Shown here: positions 18,685 to 38,821 of the stretch, in pieces
Layout: each line of letters opens with the position of its first letter
Numbering within the stretch: position 1 is the first letter of the stretch
Source: a virus
IMG/VR virus record: IMGVR_UViG_3300011116_000277
Span: 1 to 40,654 of that record
Length of the DNA: 40,654 nt
Strand: one strand, 5' to 3'
Made by a program: the position numbers and the translations under genes
The notes under the pieces: model-generated
The model's input: only the letters and a program-made list of their open reading frames with translations
Database searches by the model: none
Told to the model about the DNA's origin: nothing

Positions 18685-18707
18685 TGAGCAGTTTTAAAAC
18701 ATGCTCA
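18685..18707. promoter_or_regulatory. 23-nt palindrome TGAGCA-N11-TGCTCA
   Basis: The arms TGAGCA and TGCTCA flank GTTTTAAAACA, itself nearly self-complementary. It lies in a 67-nt gap upstream of the minus-strand gene that starts at 18650. A second copy of the same layout, with changed but still pairing arms, is at 38799-38821. Both are preceded on the minus strand by ACC. Operator or RNA hairpin. Confidence 0.6.
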
Positions 18708-18717
18708 GGTTTTTAAA

Positions 18718-18879
18718 TTACTTACTGCGTGAACCGCGAGTTCCGCTTGGATTTCCTGAGAAATATGTCTTTCCACCTTTTGATGATGCTTTCTTAGCCA
18801 TCATTGGTTTCTGAGTTGGAGCCTTGCCTGCTGAACCTTGGTTCTTAGGCTTCTTTCCTCCTGATAGGGACTTCTTCAT
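18718..18879 (-). CDS. Tiny Lys/Gly/Ser-rich basic protein
   Basis: 53 residues from the ATG at 18879, which follows a strong GGGAGGTG ribosome site; the longer frame from 18900 is less well supported. The sequence MKKSLSGGKKPKNQGSAGKA... has KKASSKGGKTYFSGNPSG and ends GTRGSRSK. It is highly basic and probably disordered. It lies directly after the portal gene. It may bind DNA in the head, but the function is unknown. Confidence 0.65.
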   Translation of the reverse strand: MKKSLSGGKKPKNQGSAGKAPTQKPMMAKKASSKGGKTYFSGNPSGTRGSRSK

Positions 18880-18892
18880 TTGTTCACCTCCC

Positions 18893-20716
18893 TTACGCAA
18901 CTGGTAGTCGTCTTACGAGGGAAGCCTGAAGATTAGGTTCACCTCTTTGCGTTAAACTTGCTAAAAGCGATTGAACATCTGGTCTACCACCTGGAGCAAT
19001 TTGTCCAGGAGCCACACCTTGCATACGACCAGTTTCACTTAATCCCAATGGAAGTTGCCCCTCACCTGGGGGGACCGCACCTGACTGCCCAGCAAGTTCG
19101 GGACTTACACCTTCAGGGGTCATCATCGCACCAGGTGGGGGATTCTGTGGTTGAAACGCCTCTGATACTGCTTGTTCAATAGGTGTACCTTTTTGGCGTT
19201 GATTGATGACTGTAGATAATTTATACAAAATATCTGAAGGGTTTTGTCCTTGTGATGCAAGGGCTGGAATTGCTTGTGCATAAGAAGCAATAGCCTGCTT
19301 CATAGCATCGCGCAAATCTTCGGTATCAACTTTTTCTTCTTCTTGTGTTGCATTAAATGAGAACGGCATCTGACGGCGTAAGAAGTCACGAGAAATTAAC
19401 TTATCGCCACGAGCCTGCAATCCGAATACTAATGCACGGTTTGGGTCAAGTCCTGCCATCAATCCGTATTGAACATCAACAGTGTAATCACCGTCAATAT
19501 CACGAGATGGCTTGTATTTGATTGCGTATGGAACTCCGTTGCGTGTACCACGCAAAGTTTTTTCCATATTGTCAAAAACTTTTTCGTCTACTTTAAGTGC
19601 TAAGCCAACAAGTTCTACAAAGGCACGAGCAAACATTGCATGTGCTGATTTAATCTGGGTATCAAAGCCACCCATAAGAGCCTGCACACCACGACCAGTT
19701 ACGATAGAAGCATCAATGTTTCCTGTGCGTGACTCTGGATAACGAGAACCTAGACGAAGTTCTCCTTCAAGTACTTGCTGTTGAGCAAAAGCACCTGGTG
19801 GTATGTCAATAGACAATCGGCGAACATCTGAAGGTCGTTCAGTTCTGATAACAGCATCTGGTCCAAGGGCTAACTCACTTACATCTCGTGGGGCTACAAG
19901 GGGTGCTTGGACTGCTTTGGTGGCAGCCTCAAGTGAAAGAAGTGCATAACGAGCCTTTGCAACTTGAATTGCAAGTACATCGTCAAACTGTCCTCGCGCT
20001 TGTGAATCTAATGATGGGCGTTGGACAACACGAATAAGAACTTCACCAATAGGATTTGGTGCTCTATCAATAACTAAGTTACTTCTTTGTGGAACAAAGA
20101 GAATATCTTGGTCTTTGTCATGGTAGCGCACAATCTCTAACATTGAGTTGGTAGAGTCTTTGTCGTATAGCAAATGGGCATATTCTGGATATGCAGCCAT
20201 TAAGTCAGCCAATGGTTTCTTAATTCGTTGATACATGCCATGGACTTTGCCGAAGCGGTCAATGACTGGGTAGCAACCATAAGAATCTAAGAAACGGATT
20301 CTTGGCATATTGTTTTCTAAGTCAACCTCAACCTGTGCTGGTACAAAGCCGTATGAAACATAACGGTCTGCAGCATCAAACATTTGAGTTTGCAAATCAG
20401 AAAAGTCAATAATTCCATTTACGATTTCTTCGCGCTTGTCAGCCTTCTTGCGCTCTTTGTCAGAAACCATAGTTGGTGAATTACAGTTAAAAGCAGGAAG
20501 CGGTGCAATTACCTCAGACAAATCTCGTGCTGCAATGTCCACCATGTTTGCAACAATAGGGTTCTCAAATGGACCATCTGGAAATAAATCAGGGTACACA
20601 TCACGCATACGACCTTTACGAACAAGAAGGATTTGCTCCATACGAGTATCTCGTTCAGCATAAGCCTGCTTGTAGCGGTCATAATTATCTTTAATTGCTT
20701 CTAGGGAAAGTGGCAC
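18893..20716 (-). CDS. Portal protein
   Basis: 607 residues from the GTG at 20716, 13 nt after the terminase stop. Portal-type features: an N-terminal helical part (IKDNYDRYKQAYAERDTRMEQ), a NPIVANMVDIAARDLSEVIAPLP helix, a central wing with RFLDSYGCYPVIDRFGKVHG, and a C-terminal crown and Gln/Pro/Gly-rich tail. GGFDTQIKSAHAMFARAFVE fits the long stem helix. As a dodecamer at one capsid vertex it forms the DNA channel and docks terminase. The order terminase-portal supports the call. The length is at the long end for a podovirus portal. Confidence 0.85.
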   Translation of the reverse strand: MPLSLEAIKDNYDRYKQAYAERDTRMEQILLVRKGRMRDVYPDLFPDGPFENPIVANMVDIAARDLSEVIAPLPAFNCNSPTMVSDKERKKADKREEIVNGIIDFSDLQTQMFDAADRYVSYGFVPAQVEVDLENNMPRIRFLDSYGCYPVIDRFGKVHGMYQRIKKPLADLMAAYPEYAHLLYDKDSTNSMLEIVRYHDKDQDILFVPQRSNLVIDRAPNPIGEVLIRVVQRPSLDSQARGQFDDVLAIQVAKARYALLSLEAATKAVQAPLVAPRDVSELALGPDAVIRTERPSDVRRLSIDIPPGAFAQQQVLEGELRLGSRYPESRTGNIDASIVTGRGVQALMGGFDTQIKSAHAMFARAFVELVGLALKVDEKVFDNMEKTLRGTRNGVPYAIKYKPSRDIDGDYTVDVQYGLMAGLDPNRALVFGLQARGDKLISRDFLRRQMPFSFNATQEEEKVDTEDLRDAMKQAIASYAQAIPALASQGQNPSDILYKLSTVINQRQKGTPIEQAVSEAFQPQNPPPGAMMTPEGVSPELAGQSGAVPPGEGQLPLGLSETGRMQGVAPGQIAPGGRPDVQSLLASLTQRGEPNLQASLVRRLPVA

Positions 20717-20728
20717 ACCTAGTCCTAT

Positions 20729-22588
20729 CTATGAGTATATGTCGTCTAGTTGGACAGTTATTTGTCGTGCTTTGTCATAACGAGTATGGAACATACTTAT
20801 GCTGTTATGACTTCGGGCAAACGAAGTAGCGTTTGTTATTCGGTCACGACATCCAAGTTCGGCAAACCAAAACGCCATAACTGTGTCTGTCTTTTGGCTC
20901 TTGGGTGCATCTGGATACCAGGTTACTAATTGTTCAATTAGAGCCTTTAGACCTTCTGAGGCATGAGTAGATGGAAACTCTATAAGAGCATGACCATCTT
21001 CCCAACCATGGAATAGTGTCGTCAGGGATGCAACCCCGAAATCAGAATCCCATTTGTTTTGACCTGTGTGATGTTCTCGTAGTATTGCACCCCTTGACGA
21101 AAGGTATTCTCGTACCTCACGGTCCTGAGTCAACATTGTTTGGAAAGCATTTTTCTCAACTCGCCACTCAGAAATCTGATAATCGTCTGTCCAGTTTTTA
21201 ATTAATTCTCGTATCTCATCTGGCTTCATTGCAGCCACATTGGATACATCTAAGAGATAACGCTTTTGTGTAGATATATCTAAACCTAAACATACGGCTG
21301 CGGTATAACCTGAACCTGCTGGGTCAAGCCCTGCAACTACAATAAGTCCATCCATACCGTTAGGTCTTACACCAGCCTTGCCTTTAGGTATGCGACCTAT
21401 ATTGCGAGCACCGTTGATAATTCCTTTAATAGCATCAGATGGAAATGCTGAATCTTCATGCACCTGTTGTTGCTGATAAACCATAGCCCATAGGTTTGGA
21501 GATAACCTTGCCCTGCGTTTATGTAACGCCTCTCCATCCCACTTGCGGTATAGACCATCAGCATCTGGTTTACCCATACCTGAGTTGGGTGGTAAATTAG
21601 TTTTTGCCCATAGGGTTACCCACTTGTTTGGGTCCTCATCAAATTCTAATACTGCAGGTTGTGCAAAGTAAGTCCATGGTGAAGATTCATCTGGATAGCG
21701 CATAGGGTCGCGTAATTCAGAGTATAAATCTCTAGGTCGTAGGCGGGTGCCTATGATTAGGAGTTTGCCTCCATTGTCATCAATACGCGACATAACTTCA
21801 GATTGAATCCAGTCAATTTGCTTTTCAAATTCATGGGCGTTGGTATTGTCAACACAGTCATCCATGATAATCAAGTCTGCACGAGCACCGTAAATATGAC
21901 CCCTAATACCCACAGCCTGCACGGTAGGGTCCTTCTCGCCAGAGTCACGAGCCTCTGAGGATAGGTAAATTAAGTCCTGCTTCCATGAATCAGAATTCTT
22001 TTCAAATCCCCCTGGAGGTCCAAAGGTTAATTGTAGGTCCTGATACTTAGGATGCGTTAGTCTGTTCTTGATGGAGAGCAGGAACTTTTGCGCCATAGCC
22101 TGTGTCTTAGACACAATCATGATTCTGATATTAGGGTTCTGGCAAATCCGATATACGGCATAGTTAACCGTAATTGTTGTTGACTTAGCGTGCTCAGGTG
22201 GAGTATTTACAATAAGTAAATCTTGGGCACCTTGTTCGTAGGTTATAGCAGGATGTAAGTCGGTTGGCACTCTACTCTCAAGTAGGTCAATCCAATGTTC
22301 CTGATGTTTAAAAACTTTTGTACCGAGATACTTCTCGGAAAATTCGGGGAAGGGTGGTACTTCCCCTCTAGCATTGCCTATCTCACCCCTTGCGGTCATA
22401 GACCGCACTTTGTCTACAGCCAAGGCAAAGGAAGGGTCAACCTTTCGGTAGTACTCGTAGGTCTTAATACTTCTACCTACGGCATCCATAGCCTTCTGAG
22501 TTGAGTAGCCTTGCATTAAAAAATCTATTACTTGCTTTTTGATAGCATCACTTTTATGAGATGCAGAGGTTATGCGTTTTCTGTCCAT
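20729..22588 (-). CDS. Terminase large subunit
   Basis: 619 residues from the ATG at 22588, which follows GGAGAA; a TTG 63 nt upstream gives a longer frame without such a site. The N-terminal ATPase has a deviant Walker A (NTPPEHAKSTT) and Walker B ADLIIMDDCVD, with the coupling motif in LLIIGTRLRP. The C-terminal RNase H-like nuclease opens with VVAGLDPAGSGYTA (acidic residue D in LDPAG) and ends near KSQKTDTVMAFWFAE. An N-terminal KQVIDFLMQGYSTQKAMDAVG segment looks like a small-subunit-like helix-turn-helix, and no separate small subunit is visible. It pumps DNA into proheads and cuts concatemers. Confidence 0.92.
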   Translation of the reverse strand: MDRKRITSASHKSDAIKKQVIDFLMQGYSTQKAMDAVGRSIKTYEYYRKVDPSFALAVDKVRSMTARGEIGNARGEVPPFPEFSEKYLGTKVFKHQEHWIDLLESRVPTDLHPAITYEQGAQDLLIVNTPPEHAKSTTITVNYAVYRICQNPNIRIMIVSKTQAMAQKFLLSIKNRLTHPKYQDLQLTFGPPGGFEKNSDSWKQDLIYLSSEARDSGEKDPTVQAVGIRGHIYGARADLIIMDDCVDNTNAHEFEKQIDWIQSEVMSRIDDNGGKLLIIGTRLRPRDLYSELRDPMRYPDESSPWTYFAQPAVLEFDEDPNKWVTLWAKTNLPPNSGMGKPDADGLYRKWDGEALHKRRARLSPNLWAMVYQQQQVHEDSAFPSDAIKGIINGARNIGRIPKGKAGVRPNGMDGLIVVAGLDPAGSGYTAAVCLGLDISTQKRYLLDVSNVAAMKPDEIRELIKNWTDDYQISEWRVEKNAFQTMLTQDREVREYLSSRGAILREHHTGQNKWDSDFGVASLTTLFHGWEDGHALIEFPSTHASEGLKALIEQLVTWYPDAPKSQKTDTVMAFWFAELGCRDRITNATSFARSHNSISMFHTRYDKARQITVQLDDIYS

Positions 22589-22744
22589 TTGTTCTCCAAG
22601 GCGGACTGCAGGGAGCCTTGGGCTAAAACCTAACCGAAGGGCGAAGTCCAAACGAAGCCCGAAGGTTAGGGCTAATACTAGGGCGCAACCCTTTGGGGTT
22701 GCAGTGTACTTGCGGAGGCTCCGATATTATCGCCTCCTACTTAT

Positions 22745-22802
22745 ACTATAGGTGTCCAGAAGGTCCTTGGCGGACACTTCTGGGCTTGTGATTTACGCCA
22801 CA
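22745..22802 (-). promoter_or_regulatory. Candidate late promoter with CRP-like site
   Basis: Read on the minus strand, TATAGT (22745-22750) could be a -10 box, but no TTGACA lies 16-18 nt upstream. Instead TGTGA-TTTACG-CCACA (22787-22802, plus-strand reading), one base off TGTGA-N6-TCACA, is centred about 57 nt before the expected start. That is the geometry of an activator-dependent promoter. It would drive terminase and the rest of the late operon. Weak sequence support. Confidence 0.35.
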
Positions 22803-23123
22803 TATTAGTAAATCAAGCAAAAGCGCAGGTCAGAGCCACATTTATGGGGGGCGAGGACTAGCAAAGTTATGTAAGTAGATACACATACACATACACACAG
22901 CCGTTTTAATAACCCTGGGGTGCAGACCATGCACCTCACTCGTCTATTTGCAAAGCAACAGAGCACAGCGCTGCAAAGACAAGGCTAGGATTTGCAACAA
23001 CTGGCAGGGCTGGAGGCTTTTACATGCAATCCCGCCCGCTTTATTAATCGCCCCGCGCCCCCCGCTTTGCTTTGCATGGCGTGCCATCTCACTATTTGAG
23101 ATGAGCACAGGCACAGGCTCATT

Positions 23124-23194
23124 TATAACAATTCCGTTATATTTAAAAAATCTTTTAAAATGTAGTTGACACCTGTCAATCGTGGCATTATTCT
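23124..23194 (+). promoter_or_regulatory. Early promoter P1 with two palindromes
   Basis: TTGACA (23166-23171), a 17-nt spacer and TATTCT (23189-23194) form a sigma-70-type promoter. The -35 box is half of a palindrome TTGACA-CC-TGTCAA (23166-23179), and TATAAC-N6-GTTATA lies at 23124-23141. Both look like repressor or activator sites. It drives the SprT-like gene and perhaps the whole early block. Confidence 0.65.
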
Positions 23195-23201
23195 GCGGTT
23201 A

Positions 23202-23220
23202 TTAAGTCACAATGACTTAA
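23202..23220 (+). promoter_or_regulatory. Leader hairpin before the SprT-like gene
   Basis: A perfect 8-bp stem TTAAGTCA / TGACTTAA with a CAA loop lies just downstream of promoter P1 and upstream of the GACAGGAG ribosome site. It occupies the same place as the leader hairpins of two other early transcripts and may protect the 5' end of the mRNA. Confidence 0.6.
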
Positions 23221-23251
23221 GAAAGAAAAAGAAAGACAGGAGAAAAAAGCA

Positions 23252-29165: not shown

Positions 29166-29699
29166 GTCCAAGCCTAAATGTTTAGCCAACATAAATACTT
29201 CATCACTTAAGTCATCAAGAGTTCCATCATTATAAATAACATGATTAAATAAATAATTATCCATTGCATGTTCTGATGGATGCCCATTAACTGCGCTATG
29301 ATTTTTTCTATTGATGCGCCATACGGAACCACCAAGTTTAGTTATTGCATCAGCCTCATTAGGAAACCTAACATCGCTAATCACGACATCATTACTGCCA
29401 TCTAAATCTTTTAATGCTATGTCAATCCAAAAGTCTAAACCAAACATTTTTCGCCCAACCTCGGTGCCAAATACTTGAAGCAACCTACGAACCTCTTGGT
29501 TCTGCTTGGCTACATCCCAACCATAATCATCTACATATTCTGACAATCGCACAATGTTATCTAGTTTAGGACTTAAGACATATAATGCTTGTCGCATAGG
29601 GTCTGCAAATGAAACCCTTTTATATCCGTAATTAAGACATAACAATTCTGCAACAGTATCTTTACCGCTACGAGCATAACCACTTAAACCAATTAACAA
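29160..29699 (-). CDS. Deoxynucleoside monophosphate kinase
   Basis: 179 residues from the TTG at 29699. The P-loop GYARSGKDT (residues 7-15) is followed by AELLCLNYGYKRVSFADPMR (the nucleotide-binding SFADP block) and LLQVFGTEVGRKMFGLDFWI, then VVISDVRFPNEADAI, characteristic of the T4 gp1-like dNMP kinase family. It phosphorylates dNMPs, including those from degraded host DNA, to supply dNTP synthesis. It is the last gene of the minus-strand replication operon. Confidence 0.88.
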   Translation of the reverse strand: MLIGLSGYARSGKDTVAELLCLNYGYKRVSFADPMRQALYVLSPKLDNIVRLSEYVDDYGWDVAKQNQEVRRLLQVFGTEVGRKMFGLDFWIDIALKDLDGSNDVVISDVRFPNEADAITKLGGSVWRINRKNHSAVNGHPSEHAMDNYLFNHVIYNDGTLDDLSDEVFMLAKHLGLDK

Positions 29700-29700
29700 A

Positions 29701-29793
29701 TTAAATACCTAACTTAATAAAGATTTCTAATACCATTTTGTAGAACTCCAAATCAAGTAGCATCATCTGTAGTTCCAGTAATATAGATTGCAT
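29701..29793 (-). CDS. Micro-ORF, hydrophobic (30 residues)
   Basis: The ATG at 29793 overlaps the TAA of the sigma-like gene (TAATG). MQSILLELQMMLLDLEFYKM plus VLEIFIKLGI is a very hydrophobic amphipathic helix or a short membrane peptide. It fills the only gap in this stretch and ends 2 nt before the kinase TTG, so it may just couple translation. Weak support. Confidence 0.4.
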   Translation of the reverse strand: MQSILLELQMMLLDLEFYKMVLEIFIKLGI

Positions 29794-30479
29794 TAGTCCC
29801 CCATCTGTTCTTGATTTATTATCTCTGCTTGGGCTTCTGCATTACTACGAACACGCCTACGCCCTCGCCATATAGGTGGTTCTCCACCAAGTCTATCTTG
29901 CAACTTATCTAAGGCACGCTTGACACGCTTACGCATTGCTTCATCACTAGCACCATAACTCTCAGCAAGCGCAGCAAAATCCATACCACCTTGTGCATAA
30001 CGCATCCGTAGTAAATCATTATCTGCCTTATTTAAACGAGCCAAACCTGCAGCAACATCTGATAACAAGGCTAGTCTGTTCCCACCCTCGGAAGGTTTAC
30101 TAGAGTGGGCAACAAACTCTGAGGTCATGTCAGGTGTATCAGTCCAACCAACATGTTCCCAGACATCAGGCAGTAACTCGTGTAATACTGCATGTGTGTA
30201 ATAAAAACTATCTGACATAGGTGAGCGTGAGTGTCTTGCTCTTTCCTTAGCCACATATTTTTGTGCCTCATTATAAAAAGTCTTACGCAACTTATACTTT
30301 AAACTTTCTTCACCTTGCCATTGTTCAATCTTATGCCAGTGTTCTAACGCCCACAAAGACATGTGCTGGTATAAATCATCAGTGCTTACTAACCCTCTGT
30401 GCATACGATTAGAACGACTTGATACTTGACGAGCAACACCATAAATAGTTTCCCAAATTTTATCTTGTTCATCCATCAT
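29793..30479 (-). CDS. Sigma-70-like / HTH regulator
   Basis: 228 residues from the ATG at 30479 (in-frame GTG at 30485 and ATG at 30476 are alternatives). The N-terminus (RGLVSTDDLYQHMSLWALEH and LRKTFYNEAQKYVAKERAR) resembles sigma region 2. The C-terminus has LNKADNDLLRMRYAQGGMDF, ALAESYGASDEAMRKRVKRA, a region-4-type helix-turn-helix. It looks like an ECF-like sigma or a derived regulator that could direct late transcription; no conserved late -35/-10 set was recognised to prove it. It overlaps the previous gene by 11 nt. Confidence 0.65.
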   Translation of the reverse strand: MMDEQDKIWETIYGVARQVSSRSNRMHRGLVSTDDLYQHMSLWALEHWHKIEQWQGEESLKYKLRKTFYNEAQKYVAKERARHSRSPMSDSFYYTHAVLHELLPDVWEHVGWTDTPDMTSEFVAHSSKPSEGGNRLALLSDVAAGLARLNKADNDLLRMRYAQGGMDFAALAESYGASDEAMRKRVKRALDKLQDRLGGEPPIWRGRRRVRSNAEAQAEIINQEQMGD

Positions 30480-30957
30480 TGGCACCCACTATCAAATCAA
30501 TCGGCACTCGCCAACCATCTATAGAAGAATCAAAAAATTCATCCTTCATAAAATCATTTGCTTCAAAGGAACCATAAATTTCAACCATAGAATAGTATTC
30601 CTCATCTAAAACTTTAACGCCAAAGATTGTTCTACCCGCATCCTTTTTCCAAAATGGAATTGCGTTCTGAGTTCGCACAGTTCTAACCTCAAAGTCACCT
30701 ACATCAGGTATATTTTTACGCTTGTTATGTAGTTCATTGGGGTACCAAGGCACAGACCAAGATAGGTTATACTCTCTAGCAACTGCCCACTCTGCAACAT
30801 TTGCTCTGATGTTAGCGTTAATCTCAGGTTCTAACTTTCCATACTTTTTTCCTGCTGCATAGTTAGGTCTATCTGTTGAACCAAACTTAGCAAGCCAACG
30901 CTCAACCGCCAGCAGTGTACAAATTCTTACTTCTTCTTGACTCATTTTAATAATCAC
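30469..30957 (-). CDS. Putative PD-(D/E)XK-type endonuclease
   Basis: 162 residues from the GTG at 30957 (an ATG at 30945 is possible). A helix with NIRANVAEWAVAREYNLSW is followed by IPDVGDFEVRTVRTQNAIPF, giving an E...D-(x)n-ExR/T arrangement like nuclease active sites (Lys replaced by Arg or elsewhere), and a beta end. This pattern occurs in small nucleases of actinophage replication regions. The call is tentative. It is flanked by the primase TOPRIM gene and the sigma-like gene. Confidence 0.45.
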   Translation of the reverse strand: MIIKMSQEEVRICTLLAVERWLAKFGSTDRPNYAAGKKYGKLEPEINANIRANVAEWAVAREYNLSWSVPWYPNELHNKRKNIPDVGDFEVRTVRTQNAIPFWKKDAGRTIFGVKVLDEEYYSMVEIYGSFEANDFMKDEFFDSSIDGWRVPIDLIVGANDG

Positions 30958-30961
30958 TTAT

Positions 30962-31582
30962 TTAGATACCTACTCGTCTGCGTAATCCTTCGGCACCTTC
31001 GGCTAGAAATACATCATTAACATCTTGATTATCAGGCATAAACACAGGGAAAACATTATCTAGTTCTCTGCTTATAGTCTTAGCCATTTCACGCCCTGCA
31101 TTATCACCATCGCAGAACAACATAATCTTGTCCCAGCCATCAAGCACACGAGAGTAAAACTGTTTCCAATTATTAGCACCAGGCAAACCAACTGCAATAA
31201 AGCCAACCTGTGTAGCAATGATGGTATCAATCTCACCTTCACATACAACTAACATGCCATTATCTTTTGTCAATGCAGTTATGTTATAGATATGAGTACT
31301 TGCTCCTGGTCTTGATAAATACTTCGGTCCACTATCATTGCTTAAACTACGAAAGCGAATATCAATTACACCTGATGGTGTCAGATAAGGTATAGATAAC
31401 TTACCTTGGTATAACTCATGTCCTGTTTCAGGATTCTTCACGAAGCCGAGGCGGAACATACGAGCCGTTTCTTCTGTTATACCGCGACTCTGTAGATATG
31501 GGAGTGCTTCTCCTAGGTTTCTTTCGTAGTTCTCCGTTGCTTTCGCCAGTAATTCCCTCTGCGATTTTGAGAGCCTCGCCAT
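30962..31582 (-). CDS. Primase, TOPRIM catalytic part
   Basis: 206 residues. The N-terminus (TENYERNLGEALPYLQSRGI, then EETARMFRLGFV) is the linker seen between zinc and catalytic domains in DnaG. TOPRIM motifs: VVCEGEIDTI (residues 112-121) and LFCDGDNAGR (155-164), the Mg2+-binding DxD. It makes RNA primers for lagging-strand synthesis. AAGGAG 6 nt before the ATG shows an independent start, although its first 155 nt lie inside the zinc-finger gene in another frame. It needs the CHC2 protein in trans or by frameshifting. Confidence 0.85.
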   Translation of the reverse strand: MARLSKSQRELLAKATENYERNLGEALPYLQSRGITEETARMFRLGFVKNPETGHELYQGKLSIPYLTPSGVIDIRFRSLSNDSGPKYLSRPGASTHIYNITALTKDNGMLVVCEGEIDTIIATQVGFIAVGLPGANNWKQFYSRVLDGWDKIMLFCDGDNAGREMAKTISRELDNVFPVFMPDNQDVNDVFLAEGAEGLRRRVGI

Positions 31583-31805
31583 AATTAACTCCTTCTCGTT
31601 TCATGATAATTGAATAAACATCCCCTGCCATATCGCAAGCAAAACATCTAAAGCCACCGCCTTCTATATTTACACGAGCCGATTTAACATGGTCATTGTG
31701 GAACAAGCAACGAACTGATTGCCAGCCTCCACGATTACTTGGAATAGTAAAACCATAGTGTTCTAATACCTTTACGATACTGTGCTTAGAGGTTTGGGAG
31801 GACAT
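31428..31805 (-). CDS. Primase, CHC2 zinc-finger part
   Basis: 125 residues from the ATG at 31805. SIVKVLEHYGFTIPSNRGG precedes the zinc ligands C33, H36, C54 and C57 (RCLFHNDHVKSARV, GGGFRCFACDMAGDVYSI), the DNA-recognition finger of bacterial primases. The C-terminal 40 residues (KKPRRSTPISTESRYNRRNG...) are basic, disordered and encoded in the 155-nt overlap with the TOPRIM gene. Splitting of zinc and catalytic domains into two genes is known in actinophages; this long overlap is less usual. It also overlaps the resolvase gene by 20 nt. Confidence 0.85.
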   Translation of the reverse strand: MSSQTSKHSIVKVLEHYGFTIPSNRGGWQSVRCLFHNDHVKSARVNIEGGGFRCFACDMAGDVYSIIMKREGVNYGEALKIAEGITGESNGELRKKPRRSTPISTESRYNRRNGSYVPPRLREES

Positions 31806-32148
31806 CGCTGAGCCTCTGGACAACATAAGCATCCCCTATTCCTTTGTTACTTGCTTTGATTATCAACAATGGTATTGGTGTAACCGCAAGTTTCTTTTGT
31901 TCTTTATAGTTCTCTGCTTCAATCATTGCTTCACGCAACCAACCTGATAAGTCAATGCGACCATCACGCCTTGGAGCCTTGGCTTCTACTACATAGGAAC
32001 CATTAACACCAGGAACAAAGGCATCACCAACATCATTACGACCTGCACGAGGCAAGCGTTGAGCATTTATATTATGACTTAAGAACCAATCAACTAAGTC
32101 TATCTCAAATGCTGCACCTCTGCGTTTGTTACTCTTTTGCTGACTCAC
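31786..32148 (-). CDS. Holliday-junction resolvase-like nuclease
   Basis: 120 residues from the GTG at 32148 (AAGGAAAG upstream). Conserved elements: GAAFEIDLVDWFL (E14), RLPRAGRNDVGDAFVPG (acidic D39/D42) and YVVEAKAPRRDGRIDL with the ExK pair E55/K57. This is the PD-(D/E)XK layout of Hjc/VRR-NUC-type nucleases that cut branched DNA. It probably resolves recombination or packaging intermediates. A longer ATG frame from 32214 would lie inside the glycosyltransferase gene and is not preferred. Confidence 0.75.
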   Translation of the reverse strand: MSQQKSNKRRGAAFEIDLVDWFLSHNINAQRLPRAGRNDVGDAFVPGVNGSYVVEAKAPRRDGRIDLSGWLREAMIEAENYKEQKKLAVTPIPLLIIKASNKGIGDAYVVQRLSDVLPNL

Positions 32149-32857
32149 GCTCTTTCCTTTCTGTTGCTTCAACGGCTGCCCAATATAAGTTATAGAAGGC
32201 ACCATCAAATGCAAAGCGTTTCATGTGCTTTGCTATTACCCCAGTATGTGCATGTATTTCCATGCCTGCTTTTCTAACTTTACGGAAGAAAGCAATGTCC
32301 TCACCAATAAACTTTTCACCTCGTTCATTGTTTTCTCCGAACCAAAAGTCCCCTGGAAATTCTTTATTAAGTACTGATAACACACTTTTGTGCATAAGTA
32401 TTAATCCCATACCAGCATTATCTACCTTAAGTATTTGATTCTTAGGCAATGGATGAACATAACTAATCTCATAATCATTACCTGTTTCATTAAAGATACA
32501 AGGCATAGGTTGCATCAATGAACCCTCTGATTGTTTAGATATAAAGTAAACTCCACACATAATAGGGCGAGCAACCTTGTCTGCTGAATCCCATAAAGTT
32601 TTTAGTATCTGTTGTGTTAACTCAATATCTGAATCAATCCATAGTGCCCAGTCAGTACCAACCTTTTGCCACATTTCAATGGCTGCTTGGCGTTGTCTTG
32701 CTATCTGATTACCCTGTACACGAATAGCATTATTAACTGGTACGCCTACTGTGCCAGCATGGATAATTGAATAGACTAAACCCTCTGTAAACTTACCATC
32801 TGTGCTTCCATTATCACACCAAATAATTGATAAAGTTTCTTTATTACTGTGTGCCAT
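32129..32857 (-). CDS. GT-A (GT2-like) glycosyltransferase
   Basis: 242 residues. The fold starts LSIIWCDNGSTDGKFTEGLV; the metal-binding DxD is D75-S-D77 in WALWIDSDIEL; downstream NAGMGLILMHKSVL and KFIGEDIAFFRKVRKAGMEI supply the GxG and acceptor-side GED motif. It transfers a sugar from a nucleotide donor. It sits among replication genes, so its target may be phage DNA, a virion protein or host surface; there is no base-modifying enzyme nearby. No signal peptide is seen. AGGAG precedes the ATG. Confidence 0.8.
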   Translation of the reverse strand: MAHSNKETLSIIWCDNGSTDGKFTEGLVYSIIHAGTVGVPVNNAIRVQGNQIARQRQAAIEMWQKVGTDWALWIDSDIELTQQILKTLWDSADKVARPIMCGVYFISKQSEGSLMQPMPCIFNETGNDYEISYVHPLPKNQILKVDNAGMGLILMHKSVLSVLNKEFPGDFWFGENNERGEKFIGEDIAFFRKVRKAGMEIHAHTGVIAKHMKRFAFDGAFYNLYWAAVEATERKERESAKE

Positions 32858-33263
32858 CGTCAGGTTCTCCTTGTGTTTTGTCTATAACTATCATTGCATG
32901 TTCTGCTAATTCTTTAAATGATTCACTCATGATTGAGAGTCGTTCTGCGATTTCTTCTCGGTGGTCTGCGCCCCCTTCTTCTGTGAGATGTCCAGCAAGT
33001 TGACCCACATAGTCAGCAAACTGGATTGACTCAAGCCAAATTGCGGAGGGATTGAAGATTTTGTTTGTTGCTTCATCAATATGTTCCACAAAGTTTGGAA
33101 GTTCACTTAGCAAACTATCCTTTAGTGTCTGTGGTAGGTCCGCTTGTACTATCGCTTTCTCCACCATCTTCGGGTTGATTGAGATGCTCGCCACTGTAAA
33201 GTTTTTTATGCTCTCCTTGCGTGAGTTCTTTAAACTCTTTCTTTTCCGTTTCTTCCCAAACAT
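32844..33263 (-). CDS. Unknown replication-cluster protein (139 residues)
   Basis: A basic start (FGKKRKRKSLKNSRKESIKN), then an acidic helical body (QTLKDSLLSELPNFVEHIDE, IWLESIQFADYVGQLAGHL). GGAG lies 6 nt before the ATG at 33263. The first 149 nt overlap the preceding gene in another frame; a start at 33167 would shorten the overlap. No family is recognised. Confidence 0.6.
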   Translation of the reverse strand: MFGKKRKRKSLKNSRKESIKNFTVASISINPKMVEKAIVQADLPQTLKDSLLSELPNFVEHIDEATNKIFNPSAIWLESIQFADYVGQLAGHLTEEGGADHREEIAERLSIMSESFKELAEHAMIVIDKTQGEPDDGTQ

Positions 33264-33423
33264 AGGTTCTCCATCCGACTATCCAAGTAAAGTTCTTTGG
33301 TAAAAATTTCAACTGCTTTTTCATATCTGCGATTAGTTCTTCGGTGGGAACAACTACGCTTTCACTTCTATCTGAGCCAAGTATCTCGCCCATGTTCTCT
33401 ACTAATCTAAGTTCCCAAGTCAT
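33115..33423 (-). CDS. Unknown replication-cluster protein (102 residues)
   Basis: MTWELRLVENMGEILGSDRS, then IADMKKQLKFLPKNFTWIVG and a polar acidic tail (NQPEDGGESDSTSGPTTDT) encoded inside the overlap with the following gene. It starts in an ATGA overlap with the ATPase gene. No family is recognised. Confidence 0.6.
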   Translation of the reverse strand: MTWELRLVENMGEILGSDRSESVVVPTEELIADMKKQLKFLPKNFTWIVGWRTYVWEETEKKEFKELTQGEHKKLYSGEHLNQPEDGGESDSTSGPTTDTKG

Positions 33424-34199
33424 TGAATAACTGCATCCTTAATCTGCATACTGGCTGGGTCGTAGATAAGCCAAACAGGTGAAGCACCATTGGCATCGGC
33501 TGGACCGTATCTATTTTTAACAGCACACACGCCCATAGTTGCAATCTGTCCGTGTACTGTGAGGATTAACGAAGGAGTCTGAGCAATCTTTCCATGCAAT
33601 GATGAACGCGGTGGACAAGGATTACCAGTAACACCTTCGCTAGTATGATGACATACAACTACAGCAGCACCAGTATCTCGTGCCCACCACTTGAGTTCAC
33701 GCATGAGGGTGCGTAATCCACCCCACTCATCTTGCCCATCAAGTGTAACATCAACAGCATTATCTAGTACTATAAGTTCAACATCTTTACCTAAGCGTTC
33801 GCGGGCTGCAAGGATTGCATCCTCAATATCTTTTAGATTAGGTGCAGAATCAAACTCCCACATAATATGGTCTGCTGGTTTCAACATTTGTGCTGCCCAC
33901 TCTCTATCTGATTCCATCATAGGTTCAACCTCTGCTTGTGTTCTGTTAGTTAACATTGCAAGCAAACGCAAACTCATGGTGTGAGAGTGAGTATCTGCAG
34001 ATATGTAAAGAGTTGGAACCTTTGCATGTACTGCAAGTGATAAAGCAAATGTAGATTTACCAGCACCTGGTGGTCCTGCAACCATACTTACTTCGCCTCG
34101 TCTAAACGCTATCTGCTGCTCCAGCAGGGAGCGCCACACTGTTGGAAGCGTGGCACCACCCTGTGAGGCAGTCCTGATTGCGCGAGAAAGTAAGCGCAT
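33420..34199 (-). CDS. RecA/DnaB-like replicative ATPase
   Basis: 259 residues. Walker A AGPPGAGKST (residues 41-50), followed by FALSLAVHAKVPTLYISADT; Walker B VELIVLDNAVD (about 140-150), then WARDTGAAVVVCHHTSEG, the sensor region of RecA-like and DnaB-type ATPases. It lacks a DnaB N-terminal domain, so it resembles the single-domain RecA-like ATPases/helicases of small phages. It probably unwinds DNA at the phage fork with the split primase or loads recombination factors. It lies between a zinc-ribbon protein and the unknown pair. Confidence 0.8.
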   Translation of the reverse strand: MRLLSRAIRTASQGGATLPTVWRSLLEQQIAFRRGEVSMVAGPPGAGKSTFALSLAVHAKVPTLYISADTHSHTMSLRLLAMLTNRTQAEVEPMMESDREWAAQMLKPADHIMWEFDSAPNLKDIEDAILAARERLGKDVELIVLDNAVDVTLDGQDEWGGLRTLMRELKWWARDTGAAVVVCHHTSEGVTGNPCPPRSSLHGKIAQTPSLILTVHGQIATMGVCAVKNRYGPADANGASPVWLIYDPASMQIKDAVIQ

Positions 34200-34202
34200 C
34201 TG

Positions 34203-34577
34203 CTATGCAGGAACCTTATTTTGGCAAGCCTGACCCTGTGGCTTAGGGCAAGCATAAAACGCCTTGTATGGTCTACCAGTAGATTTAGCAATACCTGCTG
34301 GAACAAAGCGCATAGCACCACCACCACATGCACACTCAGGTGTGCCTGCTGACGGAGTTGCGGTTGGTGCTGAGCCTACGACTTGTGCGGTAGGGAAAGC
34401 ATTTTTAACTACTGCCATACCTTCCACTGTTTTTTCTAAATCAACTAATGCTGCAAGGCGTTCGCTGATTTGTGTCATTAGTAAATCAAGTTCAGCACCA
34501 TCGGCAGCACGAAGATTAATTAACATGCCATCCTTTTTGGTTTTGAAGTTGATTTGTATTGGTGTGTTTTCACTCAT
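34203..34577 (-). CDS. Zinc-ribbon protein, ssDNA-binding candidate
   Basis: 124 residues. The N-terminal part (IQINFKTKKDGMLINLRAAD) is beta-rich; a helix and a Pro/Ala/Thr linker follow; the C-terminus has CACGG then FVPAGIAKSTGRPYKAFYAC and a last Cys (ACQNK), a ribbon like those of topoisomerase ends (GxxY/FxxC). It sits between nuclease and ATPase, so a ssDNA-binding or loading role is plausible. AGGAG precedes the ATG. Confidence 0.6.
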   Translation of the reverse strand: MSENTPIQINFKTKKDGMLINLRAADGAELDLLMTQISERLAALVDLEKTVEGMAVVKNAFPTAQVVGSAPTATPSAGTPECACGGGAMRFVPAGIAKSTGRPYKAFYACPKPQGQACQNKVPA

Positions 34578-35448
34578 TTGATTCTCCTAACTCAGGATAT
34601 TTATGTGATTCTATACCTTTTACTGCATAGCAAGCATGATTAACAGAACATGTCCCACACATAAAGCCTGGTTGTGGGATGAATATATTGTTATCAATGG
34701 CAATCTTGAACCCACGAAGATGTGAGCCAAGTCTATTTTCAGTGTAGTGGTCTAGGTCTACTGGAGTTGTTAACTCCCCTGTGCGTGCCATAAAGTATGC
34801 ACCCTTTGTAGGGCGTACACCCATAACCTTTTCGCACATGATTGCGTAGGTTCCTAGTTGTGTGTATGTAATTGGTGCTCTTGTAGATGTCTTAATATCT
34901 ATAACAGTAAGTTCTCCGTCAGGAGATACCATTAATCTATCAAGAAATCCTTTCATTAGTACTCCGCTAATCTCAACATTTAGTTCTGTTTCAATAGCAA
35001 AGTCACCGCCTGAAAGTTGGTAAGGAATATATGGATTTTCTTGTCTGCGCCACTCTATCCAGTTGTGGAACATCTTTGGTCCATTATCTAACCACCAAGA
35101 AGAATCCTCTTTGTTTGGATATTTTAGAGTTCCTTTACCTCCAGCGCGGAACGGCATACCGTTGTCAGCCATCTCGTAGTTCTTTTGCCAATACTCTACA
35201 AAGACTGCACGACAATCAACATCTGCGATTGCCTGCATTTGTGGCTCCATACGGTCATACCACTCAGTACACTCGTGCACAGATTTACCCCCTACAAGCC
35301 AGTAGGATGGATTCTCAGGCACTTTCTGTATTCGGGAAAGATAGTACGACCAACCACAATTAAGCCATGTACTCATGGCGCTGTGGCTGATGTAGGGCTT
35401 TCCAGTTTTTTCTTCAAGTGTCATTGCAATAGGAGAGTTTACACGCAC
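34570..35448 (-). CDS. Cas4/RecB-like PD-(D/E)XK exonuclease with Fe-S cysteines
   Basis: 292 residues from the GTG at 35448 (GAGGAG upstream; an ATG 24 nt on is possible). Start YISHSAMSTWLNCGWSYYLS, then LVGGKSVHECTEW (motif I His). Nuclease core: GFLDRLMVSPDGELTVIDIKTS with Asp and D-I-K, followed by YTQLGTYAIM (the Q..Y motif). Cys C31 with C264, C267 and C273 (CGTCSVNHAC) forms the Fe-S clamp typical of Cas4/AddB. It is a 5'-3' type exonuclease that probably makes ssDNA for recombination. First gene of the replication operon. Confidence 0.85.
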   Translation of the reverse strand: MRVNSPIAMTLEEKTGKPYISHSAMSTWLNCGWSYYLSRIQKVPENPSYWLVGGKSVHECTEWYDRMEPQMQAIADVDCRAVFVEYWQKNYEMADNGMPFRAGGKGTLKYPNKEDSSWWLDNGPKMFHNWIEWRRQENPYIPYQLSGGDFAIETELNVEISGVLMKGFLDRLMVSPDGELTVIDIKTSTRAPITYTQLGTYAIMCEKVMGVRPTKGAYFMARTGELTTPVDLDHYTENRLGSHLRGFKIAIDNNIFIPQPGFMCGTCSVNHACYAVKGIESHKYPELGESNE

Positions 35449-35546
35449 CTTACTCCTCTATTCAGCGACACGCCCAAGGAATTACATAAATGTAGTTTTG
35501 CGTAAAATTTCACTACACTCCTGTTCGTGCAGAACGGAATAAGTGT
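35449..35546. promoter_or_regulatory. Divergent gap between replication operon and 35547 gene
   Basis: 98 nt. It includes the inverted repeat TACAT-AA-ATGTA (near 35486) and GTTCGTGCAGAAC (near 35524), arms GTTC/GAAC. Promoters for both directions must lie here or overlap the genes, but no clear -35/-10 pair can be named. Confidence 0.4.
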
Positions 35547-35750
35547 ATGTGGTTGCTGAAGCGAAAGCGAAAGCAACCCTCTGCAGATTATAGTGGTATT
35601 CCAACACATGTGTGTCCATGTGGTTCTAGGTTAATAAAAGTAAATTGCATCTTTGATGGTGGCGAAATAGTCCTTTGGTTTACAGATGCAGAGTGTGCAT
35701 TTTGTGGCGCAAAGTTGACAGCACCCACACCAGTAGATGGCGTGCTATAG
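35547..35750 (+). CDS. Small zinc-ribbon protein
   Basis: 67 residues. A basic start (MWLLKRKRKQPSADYSGIPT), then CPCGSRL and, after about 25 residues, CAFCGAKLTAP: two CxxC-type knuckles of a zinc ribbon with a central beta hairpin (IFDGGEIVLWFTDAE). It is a lone plus-strand gene divergent from the replication operon and followed by a terminator. It could regulate the divergent promoter, but this is inference. Confidence 0.7.
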   Translation: MWLLKRKRKQPSADYSGIPTHVCPCGSRLIKVNCIFDGGEIVLWFTDAECAFCGAKLTAPTPVDGVL

Positions 35751-35823
35751 TTTGATTGACCGTACAGCGTTGGGGAACGCGGTGTGGTGTGCCTATAAAG
35801 GAAAATAGGTAGAACAACGGACA

Positions 35824-35879
35824 AACAAAAAAAGCCCCCGCTAATCAAGATTTCTCTTGACTGCGGGGGTCTTTTGTTT
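35824..35879. terminator. Bidirectional terminator, long hairpin
   Basis: GCCCCCGC (35834-35841) pairs with GCGGGGGT (35863-35870). Inside, TCAAGA-TTTC-TCTTGA forms a second stem. A-tract upstream (35827-35833) and CTTTTGTTT downstream give U-tracts in both directions. It ends the 35547 gene and the ~27-kb late operon. Confidence 0.92.
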
Positions 35880-35891
35880 AAACAGTATAAG

Positions 35892-36104
35892 TTATTTAGA
35901 ACCTAAACCATATTCTTTCTCGGTCTTGTCAGCCCACTTAGCAAGTGGTGCAGCAAGAGCGCCGATAAGAATTGCTTGCTCAGGTGCTAGGTCAGCAGCA
36001 AGTGCTAATCCCATTGAGATTGCTGATGCAAGAACAGCACGAAGATAAGACTTAACTGCAGCCTTAGTCTTTTTGCTTTTTAGTTTAGCGATTAGGTCTT
36101 TCAT
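35892..36104 (-). CDS. Holin candidate (70 residues)
   Basis: A basic start (MKDLIAKLKSKKTKAAVKSY), then two short hydrophobic segments, LRAVLASAISMGLALAADL and AILIGALAAPLAKWA, and a charged end. The size, the double hairpin-like hydrophobic core and the location directly after the endolysin gene fit a class II-type phage holin. No diagnostic motif is seen. Last gene of the late operon. Confidence 0.7.
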   Translation of the reverse strand: MKDLIAKLKSKKTKAAVKSYLRAVLASAISMGLALAADLAPEQAILIGALAAPLAKWADKTEKEYGLGSK

Positions 36105-36127
36105 GTTTTGCCTTTCGTTTAAATTGC

Positions 36128-36589
36128 CTACTTTTTTTTTGGGTTATTGCTTATTGTTTCGGCAATTATTTGTTTGGTTAGGCTTGGTTGATTTTTCCAC
36201 CAGAACCAAGGGCTGGTATCTTTTGCAAACTCTGGTCTAATGGAAATATGTAAGTGTTTGTTATGGAGATTACTACCTGTATATTTTCTATCACCTTGCT
36301 TGGCTTTAGCCCTTGACCAAATCTTTCCTTGGAATATGAGATAGTCAACTCTGTCATCTTCCTTGAACTTTTGGAATAACTCCGCACAGTCAATACCATG
36401 CTTTGGGTCATGGGTTAAGTCTACCGCAAGACCTGTATTATGGTCGGAATTTGGGCTTGCTTTTACATGTGCTGCCGATGGCAGTAAGCCATCAGATGCT
36501 TTCTTTCTTAGTGGTGATAGGGCTGTTGCTTGACGAAGGACCGATATAGCAGCAGGACTTGCCACCTTTGCTATCTTTGGTTTACTCAT
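36128..36589 (-). CDS. Endolysin, M15-type peptidase
   Basis: 153 residues. The zinc-peptidase signature of VanY/L-alanyl-D-glutamate peptidases is SDHNTGLAVDLTHD (H50, D57) with LHNKHLHISI (H112/H114). A central segment (VDYLIFQGKIWSRAK) fits the same fold. It cleaves peptide crosslinks of the host wall; no separate wall-binding domain is present and no signal peptide is seen, so a holin would release it. Flanked by two holin candidates. Confidence 0.85.
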   Translation of the reverse strand: MSKPKIAKVASPAAISVLRQATALSPLRKKASDGLLPSAAHVKASPNSDHNTGLAVDLTHDPKHGIDCAELFQKFKEDDRVDYLIFQGKIWSRAKAKQGDRKYTGSNLHNKHLHISIRPEFAKDTSPWFWWKNQPSLTKQIIAETISNNPKKK

Positions 36590-36591
36590 AT

Positions 36592-36795
36592 CTACTTTCT
36601 TAAAGCCTCTTTAACTAACTCTGTTAATAACTCTACCTTATGTTCTAGCGCATTGACGGTATCTTTAAGGCTTGACCCACCATTGGGTTTAAGTTCTGAC
36701 AGATAATGTTTTGTCAGATGCTTTACTCCCATGGCTAGTGCGCCAACTAAAGTTGTTATAGATACTGCGAGTGCAGCCCAATCAGAAGGGGTCAT
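36592..36795 (-). CDS. Small membrane protein with coiled coil (holin candidate)
   Basis: 67 residues from the ATG at 36795 (TAGGAG upstream; a longer frame from 36867 overlaps the tail gene). MTPSDWAALAVSITTLVGAL contains one membrane segment (about residues 7-25); a coiled coil follows (KDTVNALEHKVELLTELVKEA). The SDWAALAVSI start is common in class III-type holins and related small membrane proteins. It may pair with the 70-residue holin candidate. Confidence 0.65.
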   Translation of the reverse strand: MTPSDWAALAVSITTLVGALAMGVKHLTKHYLSELKPNGGSSLKDTVNALEHKVELLTELVKEALRK

Positions 36796-36808
36796 TATGG
36801 CTCCTAAA

Positions 36809-38779
36809 TTATACGACAGTTCTTGCCGTGATTTGAATAATCCCACCCCACCCAGTGAAGTTTCCATTAGGTGGTGTAGTACGAGTGAAGGTTACTTGTT
36901 CAATCACAGCCTCAATAGGTTCACCATTAGCCGTGAAATCTTGGATGATTACAGTTTCGCCTTGTGCTTCCATTTGCTCAAGCGATTGTAAACGAGCAAG
37001 GGCATATCCTTGATAGCCCATAATGTTTTTAAGACGGTCACGCTCAGAATCAAAACAAAAGAGAGGAAACTGAATAAGACGAGCACGAGTAGGAGTAGGC
37101 AAAGCCTTAACAGAGTAACCAGACATAACAGCACCTGTTGTTGCAGTGGTGTCGTTACGGTTGAGGCGGAACTTAAATTGCGCTTGAACATCAACATCGC
37201 TAAAAACCGATGATAAATCGTAGTCATAATCTGTAGTGCTTCCCTCTGTTACTGTTCTAAATGAAGATGCTGCTCCATCTATTATACGAAAAATATCAAT
37301 ATCACCATCTAGTGCGCCTTCAGTACGCAGTCTTAAACGCTTCCATGCTTTATTCTCAAGAGTTTCGTAACGGATAATACCTGTAGTTAATTCACCTGAT
37401 TCTAATAACTCAGTAGCATGTTCAATAAATAATCCATCACCATTTACACAAAAGGCTACGCGACCATTACTTAGGTTAGCAACACCTTCAACCTTACCAG
37501 TAGTAGTATCTGCATATACATCTGTAGCATAGGCATAGCCTCCACCAGTTAATGGTTGTGATAAATCAACACGATAGATACCAGAGTTACCACCTACACC
37601 AGAGTCAACTCCAGCATAAATAAATCTACTGTAGGCACTCATTTTGAATACACCTAATGATGTTGTAAATACTAAAGGTCCATAGGATAAGTCGCCTGTG
37701 TCATTAGCAATAGCAACTCTTAATCCTTGGCTAGTTCCCAAAATTACATAAGTACCAAGATATCCAAGTAAGCCAGTAATCTGTTCTCCACCAGGTAATG
37801 TAATTACACTGGTCATAGTATTTAAAGTACCATCATCGGCTACTGTAATCTTATAGACATTACCTTGCTCACCTGAAAATCCACCAATATAGATAGCAGC
37901 ACCAGCCTCAGTAACTGCTCGGAAAGTATATCCAAGAGGTAAAGTAGTACTGCCATTTACTGCAGTAAGTGTGCTTAGGTTAATAGAAGCACCAGTATTA
38001 CGATTTAGTTCATATACAAATGTACTCTTATTAACATCATGGTAGCCTAGAATAAAACGATTCTTTACATAGGCAATCGTAGCAGTTTCTGCGTTGGCTG
38101 AGTTAATTGTATAGTCTTGATGTAATGCTGGGCTGGCTGCATCAAATGAGTAACGCCAAACTTTAGTTGGAGTAACCATCATTAAATCATTACCACCCAT
38201 ACCAACAGCAATAATGTTTTCAGTAAGTGCGGTGTTATCTACTATGGTAGTTTCATTACCATCACTTACTCTAATTCTTAAGACACGGATTGCTTCGGCA
38301 GATGAGTACTTGACTAAGATTAAATATTCAACACCAGCAATTACTGTATTGAATACACGGCTATCACCAGTGACTGCCTCTTGCAGAGTAGTTTTCTTTA
38401 ATAAAGATATTTGTCCTGGAGTCCAAGGATTAATACCTACTGAACTAGCAAAGCGAAAGCGTGCCTCATCAAGGCTACCTGTAATTGGTTCTTGGTATGG
38501 GCTACCTGCACCTAAATGAAAGGATGACTGGGAACGAATCCAATAGCCCGAACCTGATAATGATTGCTCACCTGGGTCACGCAGTTGGTCAACTCGTTGA
38601 GTTCTAAACTCTGCAGTCTGTCTGCGGTATGGAGTGTTGTCTGTGATGGCGTAGATAAACGGCATACCAGCAACTGCAACATCATACTTATATGTGGTTG
38701 GGTCATAGTAAGTTGAGATACGACCTGAGAGGTCAATGTATACGCGTTCCGATATATCGGGTGGTCTACTATCAGCCAT
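36809..38779 (-). CDS. Tail protein, beta-propeller-like (nozzle candidate)
   Basis: 656 residues. The N-terminus (RVYIDLSGRISTYYDPTTYK, then MPFIYAITDNTPYRRQTAEF) recalls tail proteins of other actinophages. A long central region carries repeated strand groups with small motifs (RFILGYHDVNKSTFVYELN, YIGGFSGEQGNVYKITVADD, IYAGVDSGVGGNSGIYRVDL), as in a beta-propeller. The C-terminus (RLKNIMGYQGYALARLQSLE) is helical. With no tail tube or tape measure around, a tail nozzle or hub of a short tail fits. AAGGAG precedes the ATG, and the 38799 palindrome lies upstream. Confidence 0.6.
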   Translation of the reverse strand: MADSRPPDISERVYIDLSGRISTYYDPTTYKYDVAVAGMPFIYAITDNTPYRRQTAEFRTQRVDQLRDPGEQSLSGSGYWIRSQSSFHLGAGSPYQEPITGSLDEARFRFASSVGINPWTPGQISLLKKTTLQEAVTGDSRVFNTVIAGVEYLILVKYSSAEAIRVLRIRVSDGNETTIVDNTALTENIIAVGMGGNDLMMVTPTKVWRYSFDAASPALHQDYTINSANAETATIAYVKNRFILGYHDVNKSTFVYELNRNTGASINLSTLTAVNGSTTLPLGYTFRAVTEAGAAIYIGGFSGEQGNVYKITVADDGTLNTMTSVITLPGGEQITGLLGYLGTYVILGTSQGLRVAIANDTGDLSYGPLVFTTSLGVFKMSAYSRFIYAGVDSGVGGNSGIYRVDLSQPLTGGGYAYATDVYADTTTGKVEGVANLSNGRVAFCVNGDGLFIEHATELLESGELTTGIIRYETLENKAWKRLRLRTEGALDGDIDIFRIIDGAASSFRTVTEGSTTDYDYDLSSVFSDVDVQAQFKFRLNRNDTTATTGAVMSGYSVKALPTPTRARLIQFPLFCFDSERDRLKNIMGYQGYALARLQSLEQMEAQGETVIIQDFTANGEPIEAVIEQVTFTRTTPPNGNFTGWGGIIQITARTVV

Positions 38780-38798
38780 GCTACTCCTTAATAATTAA

Positions 38799-38821
38799 TG
38801 AACAGTTTAAACACATGTTCA
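38799..38821. promoter_or_regulatory. 23-nt palindrome TGAACA-N11-TGTTCA
   Basis: Second copy of the 18685 element: arms TGAACA and TGTTCA, middle GTTTAAACACA. Compared with the first copy, the third-from-centre base pair is A-T instead of G-C on both arms. It lies in the 78-nt gap before the tail gene, on the minus-strand leader. Confidence 0.6.

Follow-up and report, generated by a model that had tools for sequence, protein, structure and literature searches.

A recurrent 28-nucleotide RNA pseudoknot, often close after stop codons, predicted in the mRNA of unrelated phages

Two 23-nt palindromes in a 40,654-nt stretch of viral DNA (IMG/VR record IMGVR_UViG_3300011116_000277, hereafter the window) are, judging from base-pair covariation, copies of one recurrent and compact H-type RNA pseudoknot that would act in cis in phage mRNA. 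The palindrome forms stem S2, which is crossed by a second helix, S1, made from an upstream NNNC and a GNNN in the loop of the palindrome. The element is 28 nt long, and its consensus is NNNC-C-UGAGCA-U-GNNN-NNAAAC-UGCUCA (S1a, L1, S2a, L2, S1b, L3, S2b). S1 contains 3–5 bp of any sequence closed by a C-G pair, L1 is a single C, S2 has 6 bp and is usually UGAGCA/UGCUCA, L2 is usually U, and L3 ends in AAAC. Phages of cyanobacteria and of both Gram-positive and Gram-negative hosts carry the fold, yet no Rfam 15 family matched it at the loci compared.

The two palindromes of the window

A sequence-only reading of the window had reported two palindromes of common layout, and both were confirmed. 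Read on the minus strand, they are ACC-TGAGCA-TGTTTTAAAAC-TGCTCA at 18685–18707 and ACC-TGAACA-TGTGTTTAAAC-TGTTCA at 38799–38821. A joint palindrome pattern with up to three mismatches matches the window nowhere else, none of 100 dinucleotide shuffles of the window contained any match, and a relaxed pseudoknot search of the window gave no further convincing copy. In IMG/VR, this joint pattern of 23 nt is matched exactly 112 times, far beyond chance. The letters before the CC in the flanks of IMG/VR matches mirror the loop (ACACC with TGTGTT, AAACC with TGTTTT), and this pairing of flank and loop points to an H-type pseudoknot on the minus strand, which is the mRNA strand. The flanking ACC and the TTTAAA-type core are present as had been noted; their pairing with each other had gone unnoticed. 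The features of the two loci are listed here.

18718–18720, minus strand: TAA stop codon of a 60-residue open reading frame (18718–18900), 5 nt before S1a of copy 1
18685–18712, minus strand: pseudoknot copy 1, predicted from its sequence, its distance from the stop codon and the length of S1; 12 orthologous sites conserve it and covary
18712–18709, minus strand: S1a of copy 1, AAAC, followed by L1 (18708, C), S2a (18707–18702, TGAGCA) and L2 (18701, T)
18700–18697, minus strand: S1b of copy 1, GTTT, followed by L3 (18696–18691, TAAAAC) and S2b (18690–18685, TGCTCA)
18198–18650, minus strand: 150-residue gene downstream of copy 1; phrog_8200, annotated as of unknown function
38858–39073, minus strand: 71-residue open reading frame upstream of copy 2, with its stop codon 31 nt before S1a
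38799–38826, minus strand: pseudoknot copy 2, predicted from its sequence and 27 related sites with covarying S1
38826–38823, minus strand: S1a of copy 2, ACAC, followed by L1 (38822, C), S2a (38821–38816, TGAACA) and L2 (38815, T)
38814–38811, minus strand: S1b of copy 2, GTGT, followed by L3 (38810–38805, TTAAAC) and S2b (38804–38799, TGTTCA)
36809–38779, minus strand: 656-residue gene downstream of copy 2; phrog_11667, annotated as of unknown function, previously described as a tail protein

The absence of conservation in relatives had been named beforehand as telling against the palindromes. Both loci are kept in relatives and covary. All 12 orthologous sites of copy 1, the S1 of which can be extended to 5 bp, have a stop gap of 5 nt, and their S1 pairs are AAAC/GTTT, AATC/GATT and TGAC/GTCC. 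The 27 sites related to copy 2 contain the S1 pairs ACAC/GTGT, ACCC/GGGT and ATCC/GGAT, and their S2 shows the swap of a G-C for an A-T pair, from TGAGCA/TGCTCA to TGAACA/TGTTCA. The earlier remark that the arms differ and still pair was thus borne out, and this change is one among many compensatory changes. The gap from the stop codon is 4–6 nt in 15 of the 27 sites, compared with 31 nt in the window copy. A small inverted repeat (TACCC...GGGTA, 38832–38851) separates copy 2 from the stop codon before it, and occurs in some relatives too.

Covariation and variants of the fold

The unfiltered covariation tests employed two sets of sites. For the first, from scans of IMG/VR with S1b opened and from other loci, the pattern prescribed S2 and the core letters and left S1a free. 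From the core outward, the S1 pairs form in 319, 314, 246 and 120 of the 321 distinct sites among the matches listed, with up to six pair types. The second set was obtained with a pattern that held only the junction and left both S2 and S1a free. It comprises 467 distinct sites, of which 307 have the canonical S2, and S1 forms in 301 of these. Among the other 160 sites, 80 retain at least five of the six S2 pairs, and 77 of these have both S1 pairs; the remaining 80 have at most four S2 pairs, and both S1 pairs occur in 11. Controls with an altered junction gave at least five S2 pairs in 3 of 113, 4 of 61 and 2 of 86 sites. An alignment of 111 sites has a covariation score of 0.406 against a shuffled mean of 0.106 and at most 0.118 in slid controls, with double-sided changes in seven of the ten pairs; because a pre-filter admitted only sites with S2 and two S1 pairs, the covariation of those two pairs is biased upward in this alignment.

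The S2 variants include TGGACA/TGTCCA, TGAACA/TGTTCA, TAAGCA/TGCTTA, TGGGCA/TGCCCA and TAGACA/TGTCTA. A degenerate pattern matched 69 times in 40 known carrier records, with complementary S2 arms in all matches as judged by eye, and the reversed-pattern control gave no match. The element thus displays the two crossing helices with compensatory change that define an H-type pseudoknot. A geometric rule for such pseudoknots is that the loop lengths must be able to span the grooves, and the alignment gives an L1 of 1 nt over the 6-bp S2 and an L3 of 6 nt over a 3–4-bp S1, which are of such lengths. The best non-knotted fold is an extended S2 hairpin with a bulged U, which competes with S1. The proposal that the palindromes are mRNA hairpins is supported as far as it concerns RNA: both helices covary, the element is in sense orientation to the gene before it, and the geometry agrees. 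It falls short in that the fold is a pseudoknot and not a plain hairpin. A role in setting expression levels, which had been suggested together with the hairpins, would be plausible.

The alternative had been that the palindromes are DNA sites of a late regulator, for example the sigma-like protein, and serve it as operator or promoter. They are near-palindromic and repeated in the late operon, as such sites could be. However, the covariation of S1 joins the flank and the loop in a register that a DNA palindrome does not explain, the element keeps a sense orientation, and it occurs in unrelated phages without a shared neighbour gene. Sites resembling sigma-70-type -10/-35 boxes upstream of the element were found in 5 of 54 groups of sites without a nearby stop codon and 5 of 79 stop-anchored groups (the groups are defined below), compared with 3.6 and 6.0 expected in shuffles. 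We therefore reject a DNA operator or promoter as highly improbable, because of the covariation, the sense orientation and the absence of -10/-35 enrichment. The notion that many copies are located just downstream of promoters failed in the same test, although single cases such as locus L182 look convincing.

Position relative to genes and possible roles

Clustering of 354 sites by flanking sequence resulted in 133 groups, which share no flank similarity by blastn but may be distant relatives. In 79 of the 133 groups, a stop codon (of an open reading frame of at least 50 codons) precedes S1a by 0–16 nt, and in 54 it does not; the sites used for the stop gaps were pre-filtered for S2 and two S1 pairs. 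At random positions in the same loci, a stop codon was found at 0–19 nt in 78 of 1640 cases. The gaps are sharply distributed, with 24 at 5 nt, 18 at 6 nt, two each at 4 and 7 nt, and none at 0–3 nt. The upstream gene is co-directional with the element in 84 of 89 groups (control 935/1226, p 8e-6), and the downstream gene in 72 of 89 (control 934/1226, p 0.32). The 89 are the 108 groups outside GTDB loci minus 15 covered by a called open reading frame and four at contig edges.

When a stop codon occupies the A site, the next 5–6 nt should fill the mRNA entry channel of the ribosome. A spacing of 5–6 nt would place the first base pair of the knot approximately at the leading edge of the terminating ribosome, from which we infer a mechanical boundary at the end of the cistron. 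The best-supported reading, given the spacing, the link with the gene before the element and the lack of one with the gene after it, is a barrier at the cistron end, which would meet the ribosome at termination and punctuate the polycistronic mRNA. Being derived from position, it is held tentatively, at somewhat under an even chance. The 54 groups that have no stop codon at 0–16 nt and the competing S2 hairpin count against it. The knot would fold right beside the last ribosome at the stop codon and separate the translated upstream cistron from whatever follows, be it a gene, a tRNA or a terminator. Most likely, the end of the cistron would be shielded from nucleases by a 3'-end cap, or ribosomes would be kept from drifting onward, or both.

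Some of the elements precede tRNA genes, which begin within 60 nt in 4 of the 133 groups. One group has 15 sites at 3–12 nt from the tRNA, two others have distances of 3 and 5 nt, and one of 32 nt; a further element lies 3 nt before a tRNA gene in phage Molivia, with the gene for the single-stranded DNA-binding protein on its other side, and phage Labelle also has a copy upstream of a tRNA. The element is positioned 3–7 nt 5' of tRNA genes in several groups, where RNase P would leave an mRNA ending 3–7 nt after the knot. A phage contig (L062) contains eight tRNA genes and a tmRNA gene (tag ANTQTAFALAA), with a pseudoknot 5 nt before the first tRNA.

The same structure could act in the opposite direction and protect what follows it. 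The knot would then block 5'-to-3' decay by RNase J or 5'-end-dependent RNase E in the manner of an xrRNA, giving high expression of the downstream gene and low expression of the upstream gene. The element repeatedly precedes scaffold or major-capsid genes and tRNAs, and copies can stand in tandem, an arrangement also known from flavivirus xrRNAs; bacterial RNase J1 can be halted by an xrRNA (PMC5760640). Head-scaffold genes recur downstream of the element in Staphylococcus, Streptococcus, Lactobacillus and D6E phages while the upstream genes differ, which suggests that the downstream gene can matter. On the other hand, the anchor is the stop codon and not the next start codon, which lies within 40 nt in 34 of 79 stop-anchored and 9 of 54 unanchored groups (about 15% at random positions), and the downstream gene is co-directional no more often than in the control. 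The element is also present in Moraxella phage Mcat1, and the class of its host is for the most part not known to have RNase J. A strict specificity for RNase J is weakened by this canonical copy and by the near-canonical one in Vibrio D456-type phages. We regard protection of the downstream gene as unlikely.

A stable structure just past the stop codon might instead stall the terminating ribosome and lower the expression of the upstream gene. The sharp spacing of 5–6 nt is compatible with such a brake, and REP elements of E. coli located up to 15 nt from the stop codon stall ribosomes and lower translation, according to earlier work cited in PMC12306157. However, the spacing clears the expected footprint of the ribosome and does not overlap it, as none of the gaps is 0–3 nt, and the upstream genes have no common theme. 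This makes a translational brake slightly less probable still than protection of the downstream gene.

Pseudoknots downstream of a recoding site are known to stimulate recoding, and the element could be such a stimulator of readthrough or frameshifting. The in-frame extensions beyond the stop codon are patternless, ranging from 0 to 143 codons, with at most 14 codons in 42 of 79 groups, and 143 of 194 close stop codons are TAA. The extensions thus do not amount to the open downstream frame that a recoding pseudoknot calls for, and we consider this role very improbable.

An RNA that acts on RNA polymerase where translation ends, by put-like antitermination or by pausing, is improbable, albeit to a lesser degree than recoding. 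The element is found at the start of untranslated stretches such as tRNA clusters and long gaps, and the nine bases 3' of the knot (+1 to +9) are poor in G (3–12% against a background of 22%). Cyanobacteria and streptococci are said to lack Rho, and the element is present in their phages, so that its action would not be specifically anti-Rho. Hairpins resembling intrinsic terminators are rare within 150 nt downstream, in 3 of 133 groups, all three of them GTDB genome loci.

No consistent partner gene was found. The commonest PHROG accounts for 6 of 101 upstream and 3 of 73 downstream proteins, where 101 of 121 upstream and 73 of 101 downstream extracted open reading frames were submitted for matching. 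This diversity is one reason why sites for a sigma-like late regulator are unsupported.

If the element marks the boundary of a cistron, it has a bearing on the way in which phages express adjacent genes of an operon to different extents. Such differential expression would become testable in model phages, and the element would provide a tiny part that could be moved between constructs to stabilise or insulate mRNA.

Carriers, relation to known RNAs and chromosomal loci

The element was found in phages of Roseobacters, cyanobacteria, Staphylococcus, Lactobacillus, Mycobacterium and Moraxella and in crAss-like phages. Phage records were searched by BLAST with single variants, and the element may be depleted in gammaproteobacterial phages. 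Named carriers include Roseobacter SIO1, Lentibacter ICBM2, Celeribacter P12053L (after ribonucleotide reductase), crAss-like cr7_1 (upstream of the primase), Vibrio D456, Staphylococcus phiETA and B236, Mycobacterium Labelle, Arthrobacter Molivia, Streptococcus Javan383, Lactobacillus Lj771, phig1e and AQ113, cyanophages S-RIM4 and S-H35, Rhizobium TM30, Moraxella Mcat1, Paracoccus ParMal1 and Synechococcus S-EIVl. S2 is imperfect in phiETA, Javan383 and Vibrio D456, and S1 is poor in Aeromonas phiA050. Weak BLAST matches of 17–18 nt in Pseudomonas, Acinetobacter and Aeromonas phages and a match in Flavobacterium at an E-value of 5 were taken as chance. One variant searched in a collection of E. 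coli genomes gave no match. One pattern with a fixed S2 matched 33 stretches in 84,980 GTDB species genomes; two of these stretches (L373, L391) are CRISPR spacers, and several others look like phage genes by eye.

In searches of Rfam 15 at gathering thresholds, no hit was obtained at the element in the window, six further loci (L012, L062, L115, L117, L048, L022) and 16 GTDB loci, and the E-value mode gave none on the element at one crAss-like site and one site of the window. No description of the element stood among the papers listed in searches of a library that lacks bioRxiv and most subscription journals. The element is filed as a new RNA family within the known kind of cis-acting mRNA pseudoknots, and an earlier description is possible.

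Like the stop-proximal class of REP elements of enterobacteria, it is a conserved extragenic palindrome close after stop codons, and REP copies near a stop codon reportedly influence how the gene before them is translated (PMC12306157). The proximity to stop codons is thus shared. The element differs from REP in its sequence, in its fold, a pseudoknot with a covarying S1, in its occurrence in unrelated phages and in its sharp spacing. Whereas REP is a high-copy hairpin, each of the 40 carrier records contains 1–5 copies (more under relaxed search); the two were set apart by copy number and fold. The pseudoknot of the T4 and T2 gene 32 mRNA is likewise a phage mRNA pseudoknot with a less structured 3' flank, but it is located in the leader of one gene, where it binds gp32 for autoregulation, and the same gene has an RNase E site close to a stop codon that is maybe masked by ribosomes (PMC3014915). 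The element comes after stop codons of genes from many families, in phages that are unrelated, and is tied to no single gene; its neighbours are diverse and include a gene for a single-stranded DNA-binding protein only occasionally. With xrRNAs it shares the character of a compact pseudoknotted viral RNA that is sometimes in tandem, and by analogy it would be a plausible nuclease barrier (PMC5760640). The element is much smaller, has no known ring fold, and its carriers are DNA phages. Among known systems, the REP element comes closest as regards position, and the xrRNA as regards a putative nuclease resistance.

The antitoxin RNAs of type III toxin-antitoxin systems (the ToxI family) are also small pseudoknots that are sometimes in tandem. 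The element usually occurs as single copies after unrelated genes.

In several bacterial lineages, the pseudoknot is part of a chromosomal microgene with a Shine-Dalgarno sequence and a conserved peptide of about 18–20 residues, for example MKRFTMPRTAHCSEGCKLKS or MRWMFPHATHCSTCGSIRWS. The microgene loci are L407–L421, L366, L367, L372, L376, L378, L380, L385 and L388. Of the 23 genomes of one class, 11 have a match to the pseudoknot, as do 4 of the 142 genomes of another class. The stop codon of the microgene is inside the knot or overlaps S1, and in many cases an intrinsic terminator follows. A terminating ribosome would melt a knot in this position, which counts against the cistron-end barrier. 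The broadest proposal is an RNA punctuation mark shared by phages at large. A single fold, retained or acquired again and again by phages of many bacterial phyla, would dock on the terminating ribosome and make the stop codon a physical boundary between cistrons (3' cap, ribosome stop and insulator at once), and the chromosomal version would be fused to a conserved gene for a micropeptide of about 20 residues. We speculate that this may be the case, and regard it as rather doubtful.

Spacers matching the element occur in regular CRISPR arrays (L391 at about 929 and L373 at about 211; Poribacteria and a cyanobacterium). Another match (L362) looked like a spacer, but no array was found around it. 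The Staphylococcus phages ROSA and 71 match phiETA at the end of the minor-head gene only; the match does not span the element, which these phages may naturally lack. Two or three pseudoknots per intergenic gap are present at L142:7400–7600, L322:4530–4640, and L294 minus strand 2756–2950 and 4143–4260. The stretches between such tandem pseudoknots are short, and are possibly structured RNAs in their own right. In L010, L012, L036, L044 and similar loci, a TATAAT-like box, a variable hairpin and a conserved acgggctaatagttacgcctt(a/g)ggat lead up to the element from about 55 nt before it, and possibly constitute a separate leader RNA.
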